Shown in pieces: positions 3,095-60,715 of a DNA stretch of 64,000 bases (positions are counted from its first letter, which is position 1; each line of letters starts with the position of its first letter). Under the pieces are notes generated by a model, which was not told the DNA's origin, made no database searches, and saw only the letters and a program-made list of their open reading frames with translations. Position numbers and translations under genes: made by a program. Source of the DNA: Pseudomonas sp. SCA2728.1_7. Its GTDB lineage: Bacteria > Pseudomonadota > Gammaproteobacteria > Pseudomonadales > Pseudomonadaceae. The stretch lies in assembly GCF_018138145.1 (NCBI RefSeq), contig NZ_CP073104.1:372001-436000 (forward strand), written 5' to 3'.

Positions 3095-3310
3095 ATGATT
3101 GAAGACAACAACGGCCCTGAAGCGCCATACCCGGGGCCCGACGAGAAAGCACCAGACTCTGGCGAAGGTCATGATTCCGGACTTGAGCAGGCTGAGTCCG
3201 AGCCAAAGCAGGGCGCCGACGAGAGGCCAGAAGATTGGAATCCACCACCTGGAAACCCTGGCTCTGACCAAGACGCCCAGGCGGGCCGTGAGAATGGCGG
3301 CGCGAAATAG
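3095..3310 (+). CDS. Short acidic, Pro/Gly-rich protein (71 aa)
   Basis: ATG at 3095 has an SD (GGGAGAA, 3084-3090). Just 5' of the SD is a perfect hairpin (GCGCAG, loop TCC, CTGCGC; 3063-3077), the same hairpin-then-SD layout seen before cargo genes of the right prophage. The peptide is dominated by Glu, Asp, Pro, Gly and Gln and is predicted disordered. No family was recognised. A terminator follows at 3340, so this is a self-contained cassette. Confidence 0.55.
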   Translation: MIEDNNGPEAPYPGPDEKAPDSGEGHDSGLEQAESEPKQGADERPEDWNPPPGNPGSDQDAQAGRENGGAK

Positions 3311-49134: not shown

Positions 49135-50184
49135 CTATTTCGATGGCTTGGCAATGGCGCCAATTCGTCGATAGACGCGCTCGGTAATGTCTCCTTTGGT
49201 GTGTCCCAAGAGTAGGCTCGCATCGCCCACGTCGAGGATTTCCGACGCCGCTTTCGGCCTGATGTCTCTGAACTGGAAGCCTCCGATTTTCTCAGCCAGC
49301 TGAACATCGCCTTTTTCTTCAGCTTCTTTCTTGGCCCTTTCTCTGGCGTCGTCCCATCGATCGCGAAGCATCTTCGCGGTCATCCGCTTGCCGCGTGCGC
49401 TCACGATCAAATAGCTGCAAATGTGCTGAGCATTGCGCTCAGCCATTTTCCCGATCAACAGGCCTAGACTGTTTGGCTCATCACCATCAGTCATCTGGAT
49501 ACGCAGCTTTTTGTGTGTCTTGTTCTGCTGCACACCCAAGTAATTTCCTTCGACATCGTCCTTCCTCATGACCAGGACATCTGCCGGTCTTTGCCCGGTC
49601 AGATAGGCTAAGTCCATCGCGTCTTTCAGCTCTTGAGCTGCCTTCATGTAAACAGCATCCCAAACCGTATCATTTGCGTAATAGTCCCTCGGTGTTTCTT
49701 TGTTTTTTCGCACGCCCTGGCAGGGATTTTCTTTGGTCGTCAGTCCCCATTCTCGAGCAATGTTGAAAACGTGGGAGAGGGTGGCAATCTCGCGATTCGC
49801 CCGAACTTTGGCGGTCCGCGCGTCGCGGTACCCTGCGATAGTTGCTGGGGTGATTGAGTCGATGGGAGCGCTGTCGAACATCGGCCGAAGCTGCTTGATC
49901 TCCGACAAATTGTCCTTCTGCGTCCGTGCCGCTTTCTTCGATACGATGTCGCGGATATATCGGTCGAAGATGCCTTTCATAGTGCGCAGATCAAGCGGCT
50001 TTTCCTTCGCCTCCAGCTCCGCCCATTTGACCCTGGCCAAGTCCAGATCCTTGCCCAGCGGGATCGCCTTACCTGTCATATCCAGATAGTAATAGGCGAT
50101 CCAAACCTTTCCGCTTTTTCGTGTTCGTGTCCACTTGTACATCCGAGGCGGCAAGCTGCGTGTGTCGGCCTTGCGGGGGCGCAT
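49135..50184 (-). CDS. int: Tyrosine-type phage integrase of the right prophage
   Basis: 349 residues. Catalytic Arg in TGQRPADVL, box II variant FRDIRPKAAS, LLGHT and Tyr in ERVYRRIGA. About half of the residues match the integrase at 15098-16165, including MRPRKA at the start. It ends 125 bases from the attachment core, the normal place. It joins directly to a DUF4224 gene. Confidence 0.9.
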   Translation of the reverse strand: MRPRKADTRSLPPRMYKWTRTRKSGKVWIAYYYLDMTGKAIPLGKDLDLARVKWAELEAKEKPLDLRTMKGIFDRYIRDIVSKKAARTQKDNLSEIKQLRPMFDSAPIDSITPATIAGYRDARTAKVRANREIATLSHVFNIAREWGLTTKENPCQGVRKNKETPRDYYANDTVWDAVYMKAAQELKDAMDLAYLTGQRPADVLVMRKDDVEGNYLGVQQNKTHKKLRIQMTDGDEPNSLGLLIGKMAERNAQHICSYLIVSARGKRMTAKMLRDRWDDARERAKKEAEEKGDVQLAEKIGGFQFRDIRPKAASEILDVGDASLLLGHTKGDITERVYRRIGAIAKPSK

Positions 50185-51736: not shown

Positions 51737-52459
51737 GTGGGTCGTTTTCGAACGTATTGGACAGATCAGGCGAAATGGTGGTGCAGCCGAAGCTTGGAGT
51801 GGTGGGCAGCGCACCTGACTGCGTTGTATATCGGTGGTGCGATCACCATCATGGGGGCAAAATTTGATGAGCTGATCGCGTTGAAACTGAATGAAATAGG
51901 AGATCTCGCTGCTGGCGTGTTTGGACCGGTAGCGTTCTTGTGGTTGGTCTTAGGCTACATCCAGCAAGGGCGCGAATTAAAACTAAGCTCAGCTGCTTTA
52001 CAGTTACAGGCTCAAGAGCTCCAGAATTCTGTTGAACAACAGAAAGAACTTGTCGCCATCTCACGTGAGCAAGTTAAGACCGAGATTGAAAGTATTCAAA
52101 GTGCTCGCGAGCAACGGGCGAAATCAATTCGGCCGCTTTTTGTTATTTCTGGCAATGGCGGGTCTCACATGGGGTCAGCTCATGAGTTAGAATTTTCTGT
52201 TCAAAATTTGGGTTCTCCAGTTACAAGTGTAAATTTCGATTTCTCTGATCAATTTGTATTTATTGGTCAGACCAGGCACTTGATGGAAAATAAAGATATT
52301 GCACGCTTTAAGTTGAACGTTGAAGGGCGCGGGGACGGAGTTGGGGATAAGCTTACGGTGACGTATCTTGATGCGGATTTCACTCCTGGAGTATGCATGT
52401 TTAACATCACGGTGTTACCAGATGATAGATATCCAGGTCTGAGGTTTGAGCAATTGTAA
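51737..52459 (+). CDS. Two-TM, coiled-coil membrane protein (240 aa)
   Basis: GTG at 51737 with AAGGAAG upstream; the frame is open further but only as the shadow of the leftward neighbour. Membrane segments at about residues 24-40 and 52-72 (GVFGPVAFLWLVLGYIQQG), a Gln/Glu-rich coiled coil (75-125), then a beta-rich soluble domain. Lower GC than its neighbours. It shares the FGP-x-x-F/L membrane signature with the next rightward gene. Probably superinfection exclusion or other host-effect cargo, unproven. Confidence 0.55.
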   Translation: MGRFRTYWTDQAKWWCSRSLEWWAAHLTALYIGGAITIMGAKFDELIALKLNEIGDLAAGVFGPVAFLWLVLGYIQQGRELKLSSAALQLQAQELQNSVEQQKELVAISREQVKTEIESIQSAREQRAKSIRPLFVISGNGGSHMGSAHELEFSVQNLGSPVTSVNFDFSDQFVFIGQTRHLMENKDIARFKLNVEGRGDGVGDKLTVTYLDADFTPGVCMFNITVLPDDRYPGLRFEQL

Positions 52460-52588: not shown

Positions 52589-53275
52589 ATGTCTACTGGA
52601 ACAAATAAGGCACTTAAAGCAGTAACAAGTTTTTGGTTTTGGTCATGCATATCTATTGTGATTGCGTTCTGTATCGCTGTTGGAGCTTACCTTTCAAAGT
52701 TTGATGGGGGCTTATCTGGGCAATCCAGCGATTGGTCAAATTTCGGAAGCTATATTGGCGGAATATTTGGGCCGCTTGTCTCATTCATTACTTTGCTTGC
52801 TGTACTTAAGACTGTTTACCTACAGAGAGAGTTGCTTGACACGCAGAGAATAGAGTTTGAGGAAATGCAGTCGAATCAAGCTAAAGCTTTTGAGGCTCAG
52901 CAGGAACAAATAAAAAGCGCTTCCGAGCAAGCTGCAAGCGATACGATGGAGAAGGCAAGGCTTGCGATCTTAGGAATGATCGATCGATATATCCAACTTG
53001 TCGAAAAGAAACAGGACAGAACTACCGAAGGTCTGGCTAGGATTGGAGATTGGGTTTCTGCAGGAAATAGTTCTGCCACCCTAGAACAAACGAAAAAACT
53101 TGCAAAAAATAACGAAGAGCTTCGCGTAGTGATTTTGAAATTAATCGGGTTGTCAGAAATAATTTCATTGATGGATTATAATACTGTTTCCGAAATGCGT
53201 GATTATTATGAGATTGAAATAGCTAAAATATTCATCGGTGAGGAAGGCGAGGACGTTAAAGAAGACGTTATTTGA
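52589..53275 (+). CDS. Two-TM, coiled-coil protein resembling putative abortive-infection proteins (228 aa)
   Basis: ATG at 52589 with TAGGTGGG upstream. Membrane segments at about 14-35 and 50-70; the second contains NFGSYIGGIFGPLVSFITLL followed by LQREL, the layout I recall from putAbiC-type abortive infection proteins. A long coiled coil and an acidic C-terminal half follow. AT-rich, single-gene cassette. Defence against other phages is inferred only. Confidence 0.5.
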   Translation: MSTGTNKALKAVTSFWFWSCISIVIAFCIAVGAYLSKFDGGLSGQSSDWSNFGSYIGGIFGPLVSFITLLAVLKTVYLQRELLDTQRIEFEEMQSNQAKAFEAQQEQIKSASEQAASDTMEKARLAILGMIDRYIQLVEKKQDRTTEGLARIGDWVSAGNSSATLEQTKKLAKNNEELRVVILKLIGLSEIISLMDYNTVSEMRDYYEIEIAKIFIGEEGEDVKEDVI

Positions 53276-53342
53276 TTTTTGATTATGGCGACTCTTTGTT
53301 GTAATTAATATGCCTCGCAGGCTGGCGTTATTCGTAGAAGTG

Positions 53343-53386
53343 GGGTATTTGTGCTCTGCCCGGCATGGAGCCGGAAGGTATATGAG
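53343..53386 (+). promoter_or_regulatory. Hairpin leader, family A copy 1
   Basis: GGGTATTTGTG... followed by the hairpin CCGGCATGGAGCCGG (53360-53374) and an SD (GGAAGG). The same leader type precedes three other rightward genes. Confidence 0.6.
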
Positions 53387-53767
53387 ATGTCGGAAACAGA
53401 AGGCAGTTACTACGAACAACCAATATTGCAGGCCAGAATATGGTTTCTTTTCTGGACCGCTCTCGCAGTTGCAGTTCCTGTGGCGGTCATCATGATTGTT
53501 TGGGCGCTTGATAAGCCCAGCATGTGGATCTCTCGCTCCGGCGCCGTCATGGCCGCCATCGCCTTCCTTGCTCACCTCAAATCCGACGAAATGATGGGTG
53601 TTCTAAAACCCAGTGGTTGGGTCGACAAATCCTTCCAGCCAATCAAAGAAAAGTACTTTGATCAGATCGTACTCTGCGGTCGCGTGGCGGTTTTCATAGT
53701 ATTGGTGGGATCGCTGGTCTGGGGGTTTGGTGACTTACTGCCCATCGGAAAATCATCAGCGCAATAA
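53387..53767 (+). CDS. Two-TM membrane protein, prophage cargo (126 aa)
   Basis: ATG at 53387, SD GGAAGG in the hairpin leader. Hydrophobic segments at about 20-40 and 95-118, with a basic/amphipathic middle. GC higher than in the two genes before it. Function unknown. Confidence 0.6.
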   Translation: MSETEGSYYEQPILQARIWFLFWTALAVAVPVAVIMIVWALDKPSMWISRSGAVMAAIAFLAHLKSDEMMGVLKPSGWVDKSFQPIKEKYFDQIVLCGRVAVFIVLVGSLVWGFGDLLPIGKSSAQ

Positions 53768-53778
53768 CTGAGCCCGTA

Positions 53779-54180
53779 TCAGACTCGCTGGACCTTGAAA
53801 TGGAGCATCGCCTTGATGCTGTTGCAGTAATCTTGAAGCCGCTGGTGAGCCTTGTATTTAGCCTGACTTCGAGTGGCGGCCCAGACCCTGACTAGATCTT
53901 CGCGGGCTTCCCGGTTCCAGTCGAGATCATCCCAGTCATGCTTGAACGGCAGGACCAGCCATTCTTTCAGAGGCAGCGTCTTGGCCATTTCGCCGTACTG
54001 CTTTTCGTGAGTGAGGTGGTAGTTGCTGATCCGCTTCTTCGGGTCTTCGTCCAGCACCACGCCGATGTAATGACCGCGATCGGCAAGCATGACGCCGGGC
54101 TTCCCGTAGGCGATGACGCGGCGGCCGATTTCGGCAGGCACCTGATAGTGCTGCCGGACGTATGCGCAGTTGTGTCTCAT
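53779..54180 (-). CDS. Conserved phage protein (133 aa)
   Basis: ATG at 54180 with GGAGAAATC upstream. The first half is beta-rich (GRRVIAYGKPGVMLADRGHYIGVVLDE), the second helical and basic. It is a common left-arm protein in Pseudomonas prophages; role unknown. It belongs to the leftward operon that is interrupted by rightward cargo. Confidence 0.65.
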   Translation of the reverse strand: MRHNCAYVRQHYQVPAEIGRRVIAYGKPGVMLADRGHYIGVVLDEDPKKRISNYHLTHEKQYGEMAKTLPLKEWLVLPFKHDWDDLDWNREAREDLVRVWAATRSQAKYKAHQRLQDYCNSIKAMLHFKVQRV

Positions 54181-54237
54181 GATTTCTCCAGTCAGGCGCC
54201 GCCCTCCGTGACCGGTGGTGGCAATTTGGTTTGGGTT

Positions 54238-54281
54238 GGGTTATTACGGGTGACCGGCATGGGGCCGGATCAAGGAGCGAC
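54238..54281 (+). promoter_or_regulatory. Hairpin leader, family A copy 2
   Basis: GGGTTATTACGGGTGA, hairpin CCGGCATGGGGCCGG (54254-54268), ATCAAGGAG, then the ATG at 54282. Nearly identical to copy 3 over 40 bases. Confidence 0.65.
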
Positions 54282-54593
54282 ATGAAACTCACAGTAAACC
54301 AGATTGAAAACGCTAACCTGGCTTGGATTTTTGATGTGTTCGTCCAAAAGGGCGAGATTAATGATCCAGGCCGTACCGAGTTTCACAAGTTGATTGTGGC
54401 AGAACGCCCATCGTCGGTTAAGCCTTCCCGTCTTGATGAAACGAACCTTCACATCGTTCTGGACGAGGTAGATGATGCGGTTCTGGCCGATATCAAAGAA
54501 AGACTTCTCAGTAACGTTTCGCTTGCAGAGGCGCACGAGACAATTCGTCAAGGGAAGTGGTATCCGGCTACGATGGATATCTCTCCTGCTTAG
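54282..54593 (+). CDS. Small cargo protein (103 aa)
   Basis: ATG at 54282, SD AAGGAG from the leader. Acidic and soluble, with LHIVLDEVDDAVLADIKERLLSNVSLAEAHETIRQGKW. No recognised domain. It is followed by a GC-rich inverted repeat (CCCGTTCCAATGAACGGG, 54608-54625) that may end its transcript. Confidence 0.55.
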   Translation: MKLTVNQIENANLAWIFDVFVQKGEINDPGRTEFHKLIVAERPSSVKPSRLDETNLHIVLDEVDDAVLADIKERLLSNVSLAEAHETIRQGKWYPATMDISPA

Positions 54594-54678
54594 CAGTCAT
54601 AGCAACCCGTTCCAATGAACGGGCCGCGGCTATTAATTCCTTAATCAGACCCCACTTTGTACCTATCTGGCTGAGGGT

Positions 54679-54724
54679 GGGGTATTACGGGTGACCGGCA
54701 TGGAGCCGGATCAAGGGGATTTCA
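54679..54724 (+). promoter_or_regulatory. Hairpin leader, family A copy 3
   Basis: GGGTATTACGGGTGA, hairpin CCGGCATGGAGCCGG (54695-54709), ATCAAGGGG, then GTG at 54725. Confidence 0.65.
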
Positions 54725-54934
54725 GTGACACGAGACGAGTATGTTCGGCGAGCAATTGCTCTTGAGGACAAGTTTAACAAGCACTTGGAAGTAGCGAGGC
54801 GATTTCGGGCCGCAGATCCAAGCCTTTCTGCGCCGGGCGCTGTCGAGGATTATCAAACACTAAATGCCGAATCCACGCAGGCATCAAACGACTGGTACAA
54901 CTTCTGCACTGAAAATGCAAAACTTGTGAAATGA
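54725..54934 (+). CDS. Small cargo protein (69 aa)
   Basis: GTG at 54725 with AAGGGGA. Helical, charged; no family recognised. It is followed by the end of the leftward gene 54952-55332. Confidence 0.5.
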   Translation: MTRDEYVRRAIALEDKFNKHLEVARRFRAADPSLSAPGAVEDYQTLNAESTQASNDWYNFCTENAKLVK

Positions 54935-54951
54935 GGCGGCTGTAGTCCACT

Positions 54952-55332
54952 TCAGCTGAGTGGCGGGGAAATCAACTCATCCTCAGGATCCTGCTGAATA
55001 ATTAGCACGCTTTGCTCAATAAATGCTATCGACACCTTTTCGCTAACAACAAAAGGTGTCGTGACACATCGGAGCATCTTGGTCTGGGTTTCAAAGTCGG
55101 CGGCGATCAGGTTCCGCAGCAGGTTCTGATACACCTCCTGCTGGTTGTTGAAGCCGTGGGCGGCCATGACCCGCTTGAGGTCTGGCTTGAACACCCCAGC
55201 CACCTCAACCGTAAATTTCTCGACGCCCAATGCAGCGTCCTTTGCTGCTGACTTCTCGCGCTTCCTGCGCTGCTTGATGGCTTCCGCCGTCGGTTGCGGC
55301 TCTTCCACCGTCAGTTCCTGTTCTTCGGCCAT
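54952..55332 (-). CDS. Phage left-arm hypothetical protein (126 aa)
   Basis: ATG at 55332 with AGAGG upstream, leader like that of the partial gene at 1-171. N-terminal Lys/Arg/Glu-rich segment (KQRRKREKSAAKDAALG), then FTVEVAGVFKPDLKRVMAAHGFNNQQEVYQNLLRNLI, which looks like a ribbon-helix-helix domain. Probably a DNA-binding regulator. Confidence 0.55.
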   Translation of the reverse strand: MAEEQELTVEEPQPTAEAIKQRRKREKSAAKDAALGVEKFTVEVAGVFKPDLKRVMAAHGFNNQQEVYQNLLRNLIAADFETQTKMLRCVTTPFVVSEKVSIAFIEQSVLIIQQDPEDELISPPLS

Positions 55333-55414
55333 GGCCTACCTCTTCAATTCCGCTGGCTGGCAAGTCACCGGATGTTGTATGTATGCTCTTAGTTCACACT
55401 GGCAGGAGGCCGAC

Positions 55415-55603
55415 ATGAGGTTGCAGAGCGATGTAGATGCGCTAGCGGCTATCGAAGAGGACGCCAAGGCCATGCTGAAACGGATAGGGCTGCCGGACGA
55501 CGCAGTGAAGCTTGAGGTGGTCGTGTTCCTTCGGGAGGTGATCGACCTGGCCAGGTACATGGAGTCGGGACATCGAATCGTAGAGCCGCACAGCGTTGTC
55601 TGA
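55415..55603 (+). CDS. Small helical protein (62 aa)
   Basis: ATG at 55415 with AGGAGG upstream. MRLQSDVDALAAIEEDAKAM and an acidic helical remainder. It starts 83 bases from the divergent gene at 55332. Function unknown. Confidence 0.55.
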   Translation: MRLQSDVDALAAIEEDAKAMLKRIGLPDDAVKLEVVVFLREVIDLARYMESGHRIVEPHSVV

Positions 55604-55630
55604 TCTGGCGTATTGCCCCCCCCGTTGCGG

Positions 55631-55674
55631 TATTTGTGTTCGGCCCGGCATAGAGCCTGATCAAGGAGAACTCT
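55631..55674 (+). promoter_or_regulatory. Hairpin leader, family A copy 4 (diverged)
   Basis: GGTATTTGTG, then CCGGCATAGAGCCTG (55645-55659, one pair lost) and ATCAAGGAG before TTG 55675. Confidence 0.55.
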
Positions 55675-55962
55675 TTGGATGCTGCAGTAGCAGGCCTCAT
55701 CGGCTTGGCGATCGGCGCCCTAAGCTCGTTGGGTGCTGTTTGGATACAGGCGCACTACCCAACTAGGAGGGCGCGTGCAAAAGCAGTGCTGGATTTCGCT
55801 ATTTGTCGCAGAAGTGAGGCGTTTGAGTACGCAGACAGAATTGAAGGTTTTTTGTGGGAAGATCTGAACCTATACTCGAATTTGATGGTTCCGACTAAAA
55901 TTCGCGTCACAAGTATAATATTGAAAAATTCGATGAAAAATGGGAGCGGCTACTTTGATTGA
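55675..55962 (+). CDS. Membrane-anchored cargo protein (95 aa)
   Basis: TTG at 55675 with AAGGAG upstream. One N-terminal membrane helix (AGLIGLAIGALSSLGAVWIQ), then a soluble, basic part. Overlaps the next gene by 23 bases. It could be the front part of a longer protein cut short, since homologues of this type usually have a large C-terminal domain; that is a guess. Confidence 0.5.
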   Translation: MDAAVAGLIGLAIGALSSLGAVWIQAHYPTRRARAKAVLDFAICRRSEAFEYADRIEGFLWEDLNLYSNLMVPTKIRVTSIILKNSMKNGSGYFD

Positions 55963-60058: not shown

Positions 60059-60715
60059 TCAGAGCCTGCCTGTCATTCGCACGGCTACACCGATGATCCG
60101 GCAGTCTTTGTCCATTTCGACCATTCTGTAGGCGGGGTTAAGCGGCTTTAGATACCGAACCCCTCCGTCCTCTACGAGCTTTTTAAATGTCGCTTCGTTG
60201 CTGGCCGGAAGCTTCGCAATCACCAATTTACCTGGCTTAACGTCAGCTTCTGTATCAACCAGAATCATCATCCCTTCAGGAACGCTGACCCCTGACGGCG
60301 CTGTCATCGAGTCGCCTTTAACCTCAAGCCAAAATGCCGGGCCTTTGGAGTCGTAATCGGAGAGCTCATAACGATCGGAGAATCCGTCAGGGTATGGCTG
60401 CACCGCCTCTTCCCATGAGCCAGCGGAGACCCAACTGATCACTGGATAGCGATAAAGCTGCTCGGGTTGAGTCGCCATTCTCACATTGGAGTCACCCGAG
60501 AGCTTATCTGTCATCGATCCAATCCCGTCGGAAAGCCATATCGCACTGACACCGCAAAGGTGGGCAAATTTCGCGAGATGGACGCTTTGCTGGTTCTTTC
60601 CAGTCTCCAACTGCGAGATTACGGGCTGCTCTACTCCGGCCTTTTCGGCAAGAGCTTTCTGGGTCAGGTTCGCATGCTTGCGTGCGAGCTTCATGCGTTC
60701 AGCTAGTGTCGTCAT
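60059..60715 (-). CDS. CI-type repressor with S24 peptidase domain
   Basis: 218 residues. N-terminal HTH (NLTQKALAEKAGVEQPVISQLETGK), self-cleavage site Ala98-Gly99 in SWVSAGSW, Ser nucleophile in VKGDSMTAP (S136) and Lys in EATFKKL (about K178). Divergent from Cro over three operators. Represses early promoters and is inactivated by RecA-stimulated cleavage. Its sequence differs from the repressor at 18042, so the two prophages are probably hetero-immune. Confidence 0.85.
   Translation of the reverse strand: MTTLAERMKLARKHANLTQKALAEKAGVEQPVISQLETGKNQQSVHLAKFAHLCGVSAIWLSDGIGSMTDKLSGDSNVRMATQPEQLYRYPVISWVSAGSWEEAVQPYPDGFSDRYELSDYDSKGPAFWLEVKGDSMTAPSGVSVPEGMMILVDTEADVKPGKLVIAKLPASNEATFKKLVEDGGVRYLKPLNPAYRMVEMDKDCRIIGVAVRMTGRL

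Follow-up and report, generated by a model that had tools for sequence, protein, structure and literature searches.

Mobile regulatory cassettes known as PeSL, in which a promoter and a stem-loop stand before unrelated non-essential genes and are shuffled between genomes, were reportedly described in T4-type phages by Arbiol and colleagues in 2010. Phage morons and lysogenic-conversion genes are single passenger genes with their own promoter-like region; morons are not known to share a common leader. In the cluster K mycobacteriophages, a 13-bp sequence (SAS, GGGATAGGAGCCC) lies at the translation starts of many genes in one non-structural region, and imperfect 17-bp inverted repeats with a variable spacer (ESAS) are found upstream of it in about half of the cases (PMC3203893). 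Stem-loops at the 5' end of mRNA that stabilize the message are described for ompA-type transcripts (PMC7509114, PMC3997798). Here we analyzed 64,000 nt of Pseudomonas sp. SCA2728.1_7 (contig NZ_CP073104.1, positions 372,001 to 436,000 of a 6.78-Mb genome; this whole stretch is called the window), in which a leader composed of promoter-like sequence, a predicted RNA hairpin and a ribosome-binding site is repeated before several genes. Judged by sequence comparison, this block is reused before many unrelated passenger genes in Pseudomonas prophages.

The nearest known kinds are the T4 PeSL cassettes and the cluster K SAS/ESAS; the leader has an idea in common with each, but it lacks defining features of both. 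Like T4 PeSL, it sets promoter-like sequence (with a putative promoter function) and then a stem-loop before unrelated genes and is shuffled between phages. Unlike T4 PeSL, it is found in genomes and temperate phages of the Pseudomonadaceae, has a different sequence, includes a fixed Shine-Dalgarno (SD) sequence and start-codon spacing, and carries TGGC-N14-TGGGGTATT blocks that are not of the T4 early promoter type. Its genes resemble morons in being single passenger genes with their own promoter-like region among prophage genes, and differ from them in having a leader in common. An integron attC is a folded site at the 3' end of a gene that recombines at a fixed nucleotide. The leader lies 5' of the gene and, in the pairs inspected, exchange could lie anywhere in the shared core; no search for such an integrase was made. 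As in cluster K, a conserved sequence at the start site of many genes has an inverted repeat just upstream; unlike there, the leader has no 13-bp GGGATAGGAGCCC at its start codons (its conserved start-proximal sequence is CCGGCATGGAGCCGGATCAAGGAG), its arms are 5 nt around a 5-nt loop and not 17-bp repeats, and it has promoter-like blocks, occurs in many phages and has its promoter halves exchanged (PMC3203893). With the ompA-type elements it shares a predicted stem-loop in the 5' untranslated region, which in the leader has a strong SD after it; unlike them it does not belong to a host gene, is common to at least 93 blastp clusters of genes, and is a candidate stabilizer only by prediction (PMC7509114, PMC3997798). 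Rfam gave no match at the curated gathering score across the whole window. Among the literature matches listed, which do not cover subscription papers, there was no description of the leader in work on Pseudomonas prophage leaders and no occurrence of the full hairpin string, and a word search in the main text of two papers on named phages (PMC10305613, PMC4936722) yielded no leader description.

The Leader and the Genes Behind It

A unit of the leader consists, in order, of TGGC-N14-TGGGGTATT, a CCGGC-N5-GCCGG hairpin, AUCAAGGAG and the start codon, with a 3-nt AUC spacer between the hairpin and the AAGGAG SD. The window holds four copies of about 60-70 bp, before open reading frames (ORFs) starting at 53387, 54282, 54725 and 55675, where the preliminary description of this DNA had placed them. 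A profile built from viral contigs alone, with the window sequence not included, recovers all four, at E 2e-16 (54212), 5.6e-15 (54662), 1.1e-10 (53315) and 9.9e-9 (55624), and covariance model R1 also finds them in their own genome, the four being among its training rows. The elements said to be common to all copies are so in part. GGGTATT is exact in copies 1 and 3 and is replaced by GGGTTATT in copy 2 and GCGGTATT in copy 4; the hairpin is likewise exact in copies 1 and 3, with one loop change in copy 2 and one loop and one stem change in copy 4; the SD sequence ATCAAGGAG is exact in copies 2 and 4, reads ATCAAGGGG in copy 3, and has only GGAAGG in copy 1. The predicted fold of copy 4 is left with the inner three pairs alone. 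A C-run at 55610-55623 lies in the spacer of copy 4, where the two blocks are 25 instead of 23 nt apart, and this lengthening suggests that its putative promoter has decayed. A perfect hairpin had also been claimed right before the SD of a gene at 3095; R1 has no match there at E <= 1, and what is present is a short CCC/GGG pairing that overlaps the SD, so this gene was rejected as a further copy.

By blastp the genes behind the leaders are unrelated, as the preliminary description had stated for the window, where the four ORFs fall into four different blastp clusters. Altogether, 233 complete ORFs behind leaders form 93 clusters at E 1e-3, a threshold by which "unlinked" is defined here, more distant kinship being outside this comparison. 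None of the four window proteins matches a family in Pfam, PHROGs or PADLOC. We scanned 95 proteins, namely two window ORFs and one representative for each cluster. They match eight Pfam families, including TIR_2, DUF4145 and DUF2971, together with 31 PHROGs families, and the 25 of these that were shown are nearly all without description. By raw count, six of the 95 proteins match PADLOC models of anti-phage defense; ten of the 95 were rescanned singly against these models. The matches are to PD-T7-5 (E 2.2e-116, spanning nearly the full protein length), TIR-TM (5.8e-57), PDC-S31 in two proteins, PD-T7-4 (1.2e-6) and a TIR effector (5.6e-8). Taken in the same order of models, with PDC-S31 counted twice, the loci are L086:6414-7475, L186:1578-2414, L072:482-1363, L109:7769-8644, L148:9231-9980 and L141:1020-1958.

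Leaders and genes are not tied to each other. More than one upstream type, assigned by regular expression, occurs in 33 of the 43 clusters that have at least two members; the true number may be lower, as copies cut off at a contig end and near-matches are lumped in the class "other" (79 of 233). Genes that are 95-100% identical have a type B upstream sequence in one case and type A in the other (L139/L147, L037/L263, L142/L276, L145/L170). The converse is seen in 258 pairs, involving 93 different copies, whose 60-bp upstream sequences are at least 95% identical while the genes behind them belong to different clusters. Canonical copies share a core of about 40 bp from TGGGGTATT to AAGGAG, and recombination inside this core would explain both patterns of exchange. 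Comparison of the copies thus demonstrates the architecture, its spread over genes without blastp similarity and the repeated exchange of the upstream half between genes. The proposal in the preliminary description of a mobile expression cassette copied to new cargo is supported by the 93 unlinked clusters, the exchanged upstream halves and the promoter-like spacing of the blocks.

Distribution

The exact 22-mer of hairpin and SD is present in at least 120 IMG/VR stretches, and when these loci and the window were searched with a profile, there were 184 matches at E <= 0.1, some of them partial. Covariance model R1 was built from 70 chosen rows, four of them from the window; its E-values are rough, and the large genome scans were run with stricter filters. 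The covariance search of Pseudomonas that had been suggested for this element was productive: R1 matches 201 of the 398 genomes in the genus sample (E <= 0.01). It also matches 35 of 198 genomes and 7 of 19 genera in the family sample (E <= 0.001), and 2 of 369 genomes in the class sample (E <= 1e-4), namely the genome of the window and G938 (E 1.7e-6). Read by eye, the G938 site has neither TGGGGTATT nor the CCGGC/GCCGG stem, and we took it as a chance match and not as a copy outside the family.

A search that required exact flanks but set no condition on the hairpin found 23 genome stretches, 22 titled Pseudomonas and one a short contig labeled Streptomyces. The latter (NZ_JAHHIU010000317.1, 8442 bp, Streptomyces sp.; L317) has both the leader and a cargo gene that was otherwise met in Pseudomonas phages, and it is probably a contamination of the assembly. 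A 111-bp query matches one of 72,556 plasmid records, at NC_019265.2:51789-51871 of a Pseudomonas savastanoi plasmid (77% identical), and a 101-bp query matches 24 of 50,697 phage records, 13 of the 24 in its upstream half only.

Conservation of the Promoter-Like Blocks

The anatomy was read from 269 unique gap-free copies, collected in the 15-column form of the hairpin. A hexamer starting with TA lies 10-14 nt before the hairpin in 261 of the 263 copies with enough upstream sequence, TA being a search criterion and the best of several offsets being taken. Two conserved upstream blocks show promoter-like spacing: in 36 upstream regions less than 75% identical to one another, information peaks at TGG(C) and TGGGGTAT with a low-information spacer between them, and the distance from block to block is 23 nt in 250 of 261 copies. 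From the first T of TATT to the hairpin there are 12 nt in 185 of these, 13 in 18 and 14 in 57, so that if the second block is a -10 element, +1 would coincide with the hairpin's first base or precede it by 1-2 nt. The hairpin ends 14-16 nt before the chosen start codon in 200 of 234 copies. Type B promoter sequence that is exact through TATTA[ACT] is followed by a canonical hairpin in 60 of 70 distinct downstream sequences. The TGGC block suggested a sigma-54 promoter. The sigma-54 consensus has a GC element about 10 nt beyond a TGGC-like block; this element is absent from the logo, and the candidate was rejected.

Conservation of the Hairpin

Taken by itself the 15-nt hairpin is weak evidence, and the significance comes from its flanks and its recurrence elsewhere. 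Allowing up to 3 mismatches, it has 8 matches versus a shuffled mean of 3.08, and 3 of 100 shuffles reach 8; folding of the four window stretches modestly beats shuffled sequence (z -1.70, -1.89, -1.69 and -0.40).

When the flanks were fixed and a stem base was forced to differ, IMG/VR yielded no stretch for stem position 2, none for position 3 and 1 for position 4. Among the 120 22-mer stretches, which were chosen for being canonical, 70 canonical copies have these flanks. All five stem pairs are present in 259 of the 269 copies. In the 70-row alignment 98.9% of cells pair and 2 cells are changed on both sides. A 40-row set, hand-picked to include diverged copies and other genera and hence not a random sample, has 97.0% of its cells paired versus 94.8% in shuffled sequence, with 6 cells unpaired and 4 compensatory cells: pair 1 changes from C-G to U-A in L054, L204 and L205 (the last two probably orthologous), and pair 5 from C-G to A-U in L136. 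A lack of covariation had been named in advance as the finding that would speak against the element; compensatory changes do occur, and the near-invariance of the hairpin sequence keeps their number low.

In 34 distinct hairpins, which were found with a profile that includes the stem, 35 of 53 substitutions fall in the loop, although it makes up 5 of the 15 positions (p 1e-6). In two sets gathered without reference to the hairpin the loop takes 9 of 13 (p 0.009; one row with more than 4 differences was dropped from this count). Stem changes in the distinct hairpins number 9 at C positions, all C to T, and 9 at G positions, 5 of them to A and 4 to other bases; equal counts at C and G do not separate a role in RNA from one in DNA. 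A stem lengthened by two pairs with a bulge can be drawn in copies 2 and 3, is impossible in the TGTTCGGC type, and was not counted.

Behind the promoter-like blocks we collected 172 distinct downstream sequences; a loose pattern recognizes the canonical hairpin in 139 of them. The remaining 33 fold slightly better than shuffled sequence (mean z -0.54, p 0.021 in a one-sided Wilcoxon test), and also better than windows taken farther downstream (p 0.0023). Hairpins of unrelated sequence are found at the same place in L068, L132, L253, L291 and L296, clearly so in all of these except L253, which gives moderate support to the suggestion that some hairpin at this place matters. The hairpin seems to be kept mainly as a sequence, with its structure apparently constrained as well: a stem more conserved than the loop, a few compensatory changes and some unrelated hairpins in place make an RNA structure likely. 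That such a structure governs translation in lysogens, the other proposal of the preliminary description, is at this stage a conjecture.

Prophage Setting

The features of the leaders, their genes and the two ends of the surrounding prophage region are given in Table 1. The four cargo ORFs lie amid minus-strand ORFs (53779-54180, 54952-55332 and others) between the integrase and the CI-like repressor. Across 146 copies with flanks, 62% of flanking coding bases on average are antisense to the leader by crude ORF calling; both neighbors are opposite in 55 copies, one in 69 and none in 22.

TABLE 1 Leader copies, their cargo ORFs and the ends of the prophage region, in window positions. MFE, minimum free energy; sequence shown for hairpins is stem-loop-stem.
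Feature	Position	Strand	Remarks
Copy 1, promoter-like blocks	TGGC 53323-53326, TATTTG 53346-53351	+	23 nt start-to-start; sequence, logo, profile E 1.1e-10
Copy 1, hairpin CCGGC-AUGGA-GCCGG	53360-53374	+	MFE -9.7
Cargo 1	53387-53767	+	126 aa ORF; SD GGAAGG overlapping hairpin end
Copy 2, promoter-like blocks	TGGC 54219-54222, TATTAC 54242-54247 (54219-54247)	+	Profile E 2e-16
Copy 2, hairpin CCGGC-AUGGG-GCCGG, then AUCAAGGAG	54254-54268, then 54269-54277	+	Sequence, folding
Cargo 2	54282-54593	+	103 aa ORF; one relative among collected cargo
Copy 3, promoter-like blocks	TACC (degenerate first block) 54660-54663, TATTAC 54683-54688	+	Profile E 5.6e-15
Copy 3, hairpin CCGGC-AUGGA-GCCGG, then AUCAAGGGG	54695-54709, then 54710-54718	+	Sequence, folding
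Cargo 3	54725-54934	+	69 aa ORF, GTG start; sole member of its cluster
Copy 4, promoter-like blocks	TGGC 55606-55609, TATTTG 55631-55636 (55606-55636)	+	25 nt apart; profile E 9.9e-9
Copy 4, altered hairpin CCGGC-AUAGA-GCCUG, then AUCAAGGAG	55645-55659, then 55660-55668	+	Sequence, folding
Cargo 4	55675-55962	+	95 aa ORF, TTG start; cluster of 6 members
Phage integrase	49135-50184	-	PF00589 E 1.4e-9; one end of prophage region with cargo
CI-like repressor (HTH_3 + Peptidase_S24)	60059-60715	-	PF00717 E 7.7e-27; opposite end of region

Relatives of cargo 4 in L113, L139 and L231 have GTG where cargo 4 has its TTG start. A diverged fifth copy in the same genome lies just left of the window (G000:C1:371196-371264, about 11196-11264 in L197) and precedes a 193-aa ORF with apparent membrane segments by eye. 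Judged by eye, two further plus-strand ORFs of the window, at 51761-52456 and 52589-53275, resemble each other in a membrane-plus-coiled arrangement, and the leader cargo cluster L167 looks akin to the first. The second has a match to phrog_8999, whose function is unknown. In phage H66 (KC262634.1) a 108-aa ORF at L151:3030-3353 follows the hairpin and SD; it runs against the annotated genes on either side and has no coding sequence entry in the record. A small gene (MRLQSDVDALAAIEEDAK...) lies behind a promoter-like block at L149:2296-2390, with similar ones in L114, L293-L295, L298, L299, L303, L304, L306 and L307; the 5' end predicted for it (UCUGCAAUCUCA, in some cases varied) could base-pair with the region around the gene's start, leaving the SD in a loop. 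A relative of this gene, at 55415-55603 in the window, is without the promoter block.

Interpretation

In our judgment the element is probably an autonomous expression leader, with a transcript that begins at a stabilizing 5' hairpin, and is exchanged by homologous recombination. The two blocks would act as -35 and -10 elements, and the transcript would start at the hairpin or 1-2 nt before it; a stabilizing hairpin has its stem within a few nt of the transcript 5' end, and the block spacing would put the start 0-2 nt before the stem. The 5'-terminal hairpin would shield the mRNA from 5'-end-dependent decay while the SD stays exposed, so that a weak promoter gains reliable output, and the prophage could thereby express the passenger gene without depending on the opposing early operon. 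Homology for the recombination that shuffles leaders and cargo between phages would be supplied by the shared core of about 40 bp. Transcription start and stabilization are what we infer from these features, as is expression in the lysogen independent of the early operon, because of the placement and orientation of the cargo among opposing ORFs.

A number of observations weigh against this account. A sigma-70 consensus scan finds 5 sites versus 4.9 expected and none of the four leaders, and the hexamers are poor sigma-70 matches at a spacing that fits 16-18 nt; because the scan skips the leader sites, the predicted promoter would have to be a weak one, depend on activation or belong to a different type. 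Both the start site and the promoter activity are predictions. The stem sequence is held more strongly than stabilization alone requires (the 0, 0 and 1 stretches with changes above), and the stem ends 3 nt before AAGGAG, which calls for caution about a stabilizing hairpin. Sliding the 70-row alignment by 1-3 columns gives up to 1 cell changed on both sides versus 2, and a one-column slide of the 3' partners in the 40-row set gives 3 versus 4, with 43.0% paired. Among the 33 hairpin-less downstream sequences, 8 reach a shuffled p < 0.1 and many show nothing; of the 8, L311 and L100 derive from the canonical hairpin and L302 extends into a region resembling a terminator, which leaves 5. Neighbor orientation is mixed, with both on the same strand as the leader in 22 of 146 copies. 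Finally, a palindromic DNA operator would produce much of the same stem pattern.

Such an operator is the alternative that survives best, and we regard it as rather unlikely. The palindrome CCGGC-N5-GCCGG at about +1 to +15 would bind a dimeric repressor or activator coordinating all the genes, and the hairpin would be incidental. The near-invariant stem sequence fits this, as do the position of the palindrome just downstream of the promoter-like blocks and the symmetrical changes, which suit a palindrome too; the 9 pair-keeping C-to-T changes are no commoner than the 9 stem G changes, which break a pair unless compensated. It accounts poorly for the unrelated hairpins at the same place in some promoter copies, and the stretch would be transcribed if the -10 reading is right and keeps a near-fixed distance to the start codon, which an operator does not need.

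The extensive exchange at the block would also be expected if it were only a homology block, that is, a recombination boundary whose hairpin has no regulatory role; we hold this to be improbable, as the blocks, the stem and the start-codon spacing are kept, in contrast to the freely varying spacer between the blocks.

Slightly less probable still is a target of RsmA/CsrA, in which GGA in the hairpin loop and GGA in the SD let a dimer block translation. The canonical AUGGA loop on a stem, the GGA within the SD and the presence of loop GGA in 223 of 269 copies are of the expected kind, and a paper on such sites describes ANGGAX hexaloops as high-affinity and mentions AGGGA and AAGGA pentaloops (PMC4005645). 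The variation of the loop is the reverse of the prediction: the A of GGA is its most variable position (35 of 269 differ) and the second G the next (15), whereas the N position, which should be free, hardly varies (2 of 269 differ). Moreover, loop GGA is missing in 8 of 13 copies from other genera (6 AUGGG, 2 AUUGA; 13 of 20 loci, the other 7 not matching the pattern used), in phage H66, which has AUGGG, and in window copies 2 and 4. We rejected the candidate on this loop variation. That the leader is the 5' part of the gene, with an N-terminal extension translated from the AUG of the canonical loop, is hardly credible and was rejected, as this AUG occurs in each of the three possible frames with respect to the gene start (75, 116 and 43 of 234) and is lost in some loops.

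In about half of the Pseudomonas species genomes that were sampled (201/398), passenger genes are marked by this one leader. It offers a handle for finding short, often unannotated prophage genes such as the 108-aa ORF of phage H66, and, taken as an autonomous expression leader, it is a natural, repeatedly shuffled expression part and a model for how temperate phages may gain genes that work at once. More tentatively, and with doubt, it is possible that one conserved host factor, binding RNA or DNA, recognizes the near-invariant hairpin; a great many unrelated prophage passenger genes across the Pseudomonadaceae would then form a shared "passenger-gene regulon". If this is true, any phage could join the regulon by picking up the leader, and several of its members would be anti-phage defense genes.

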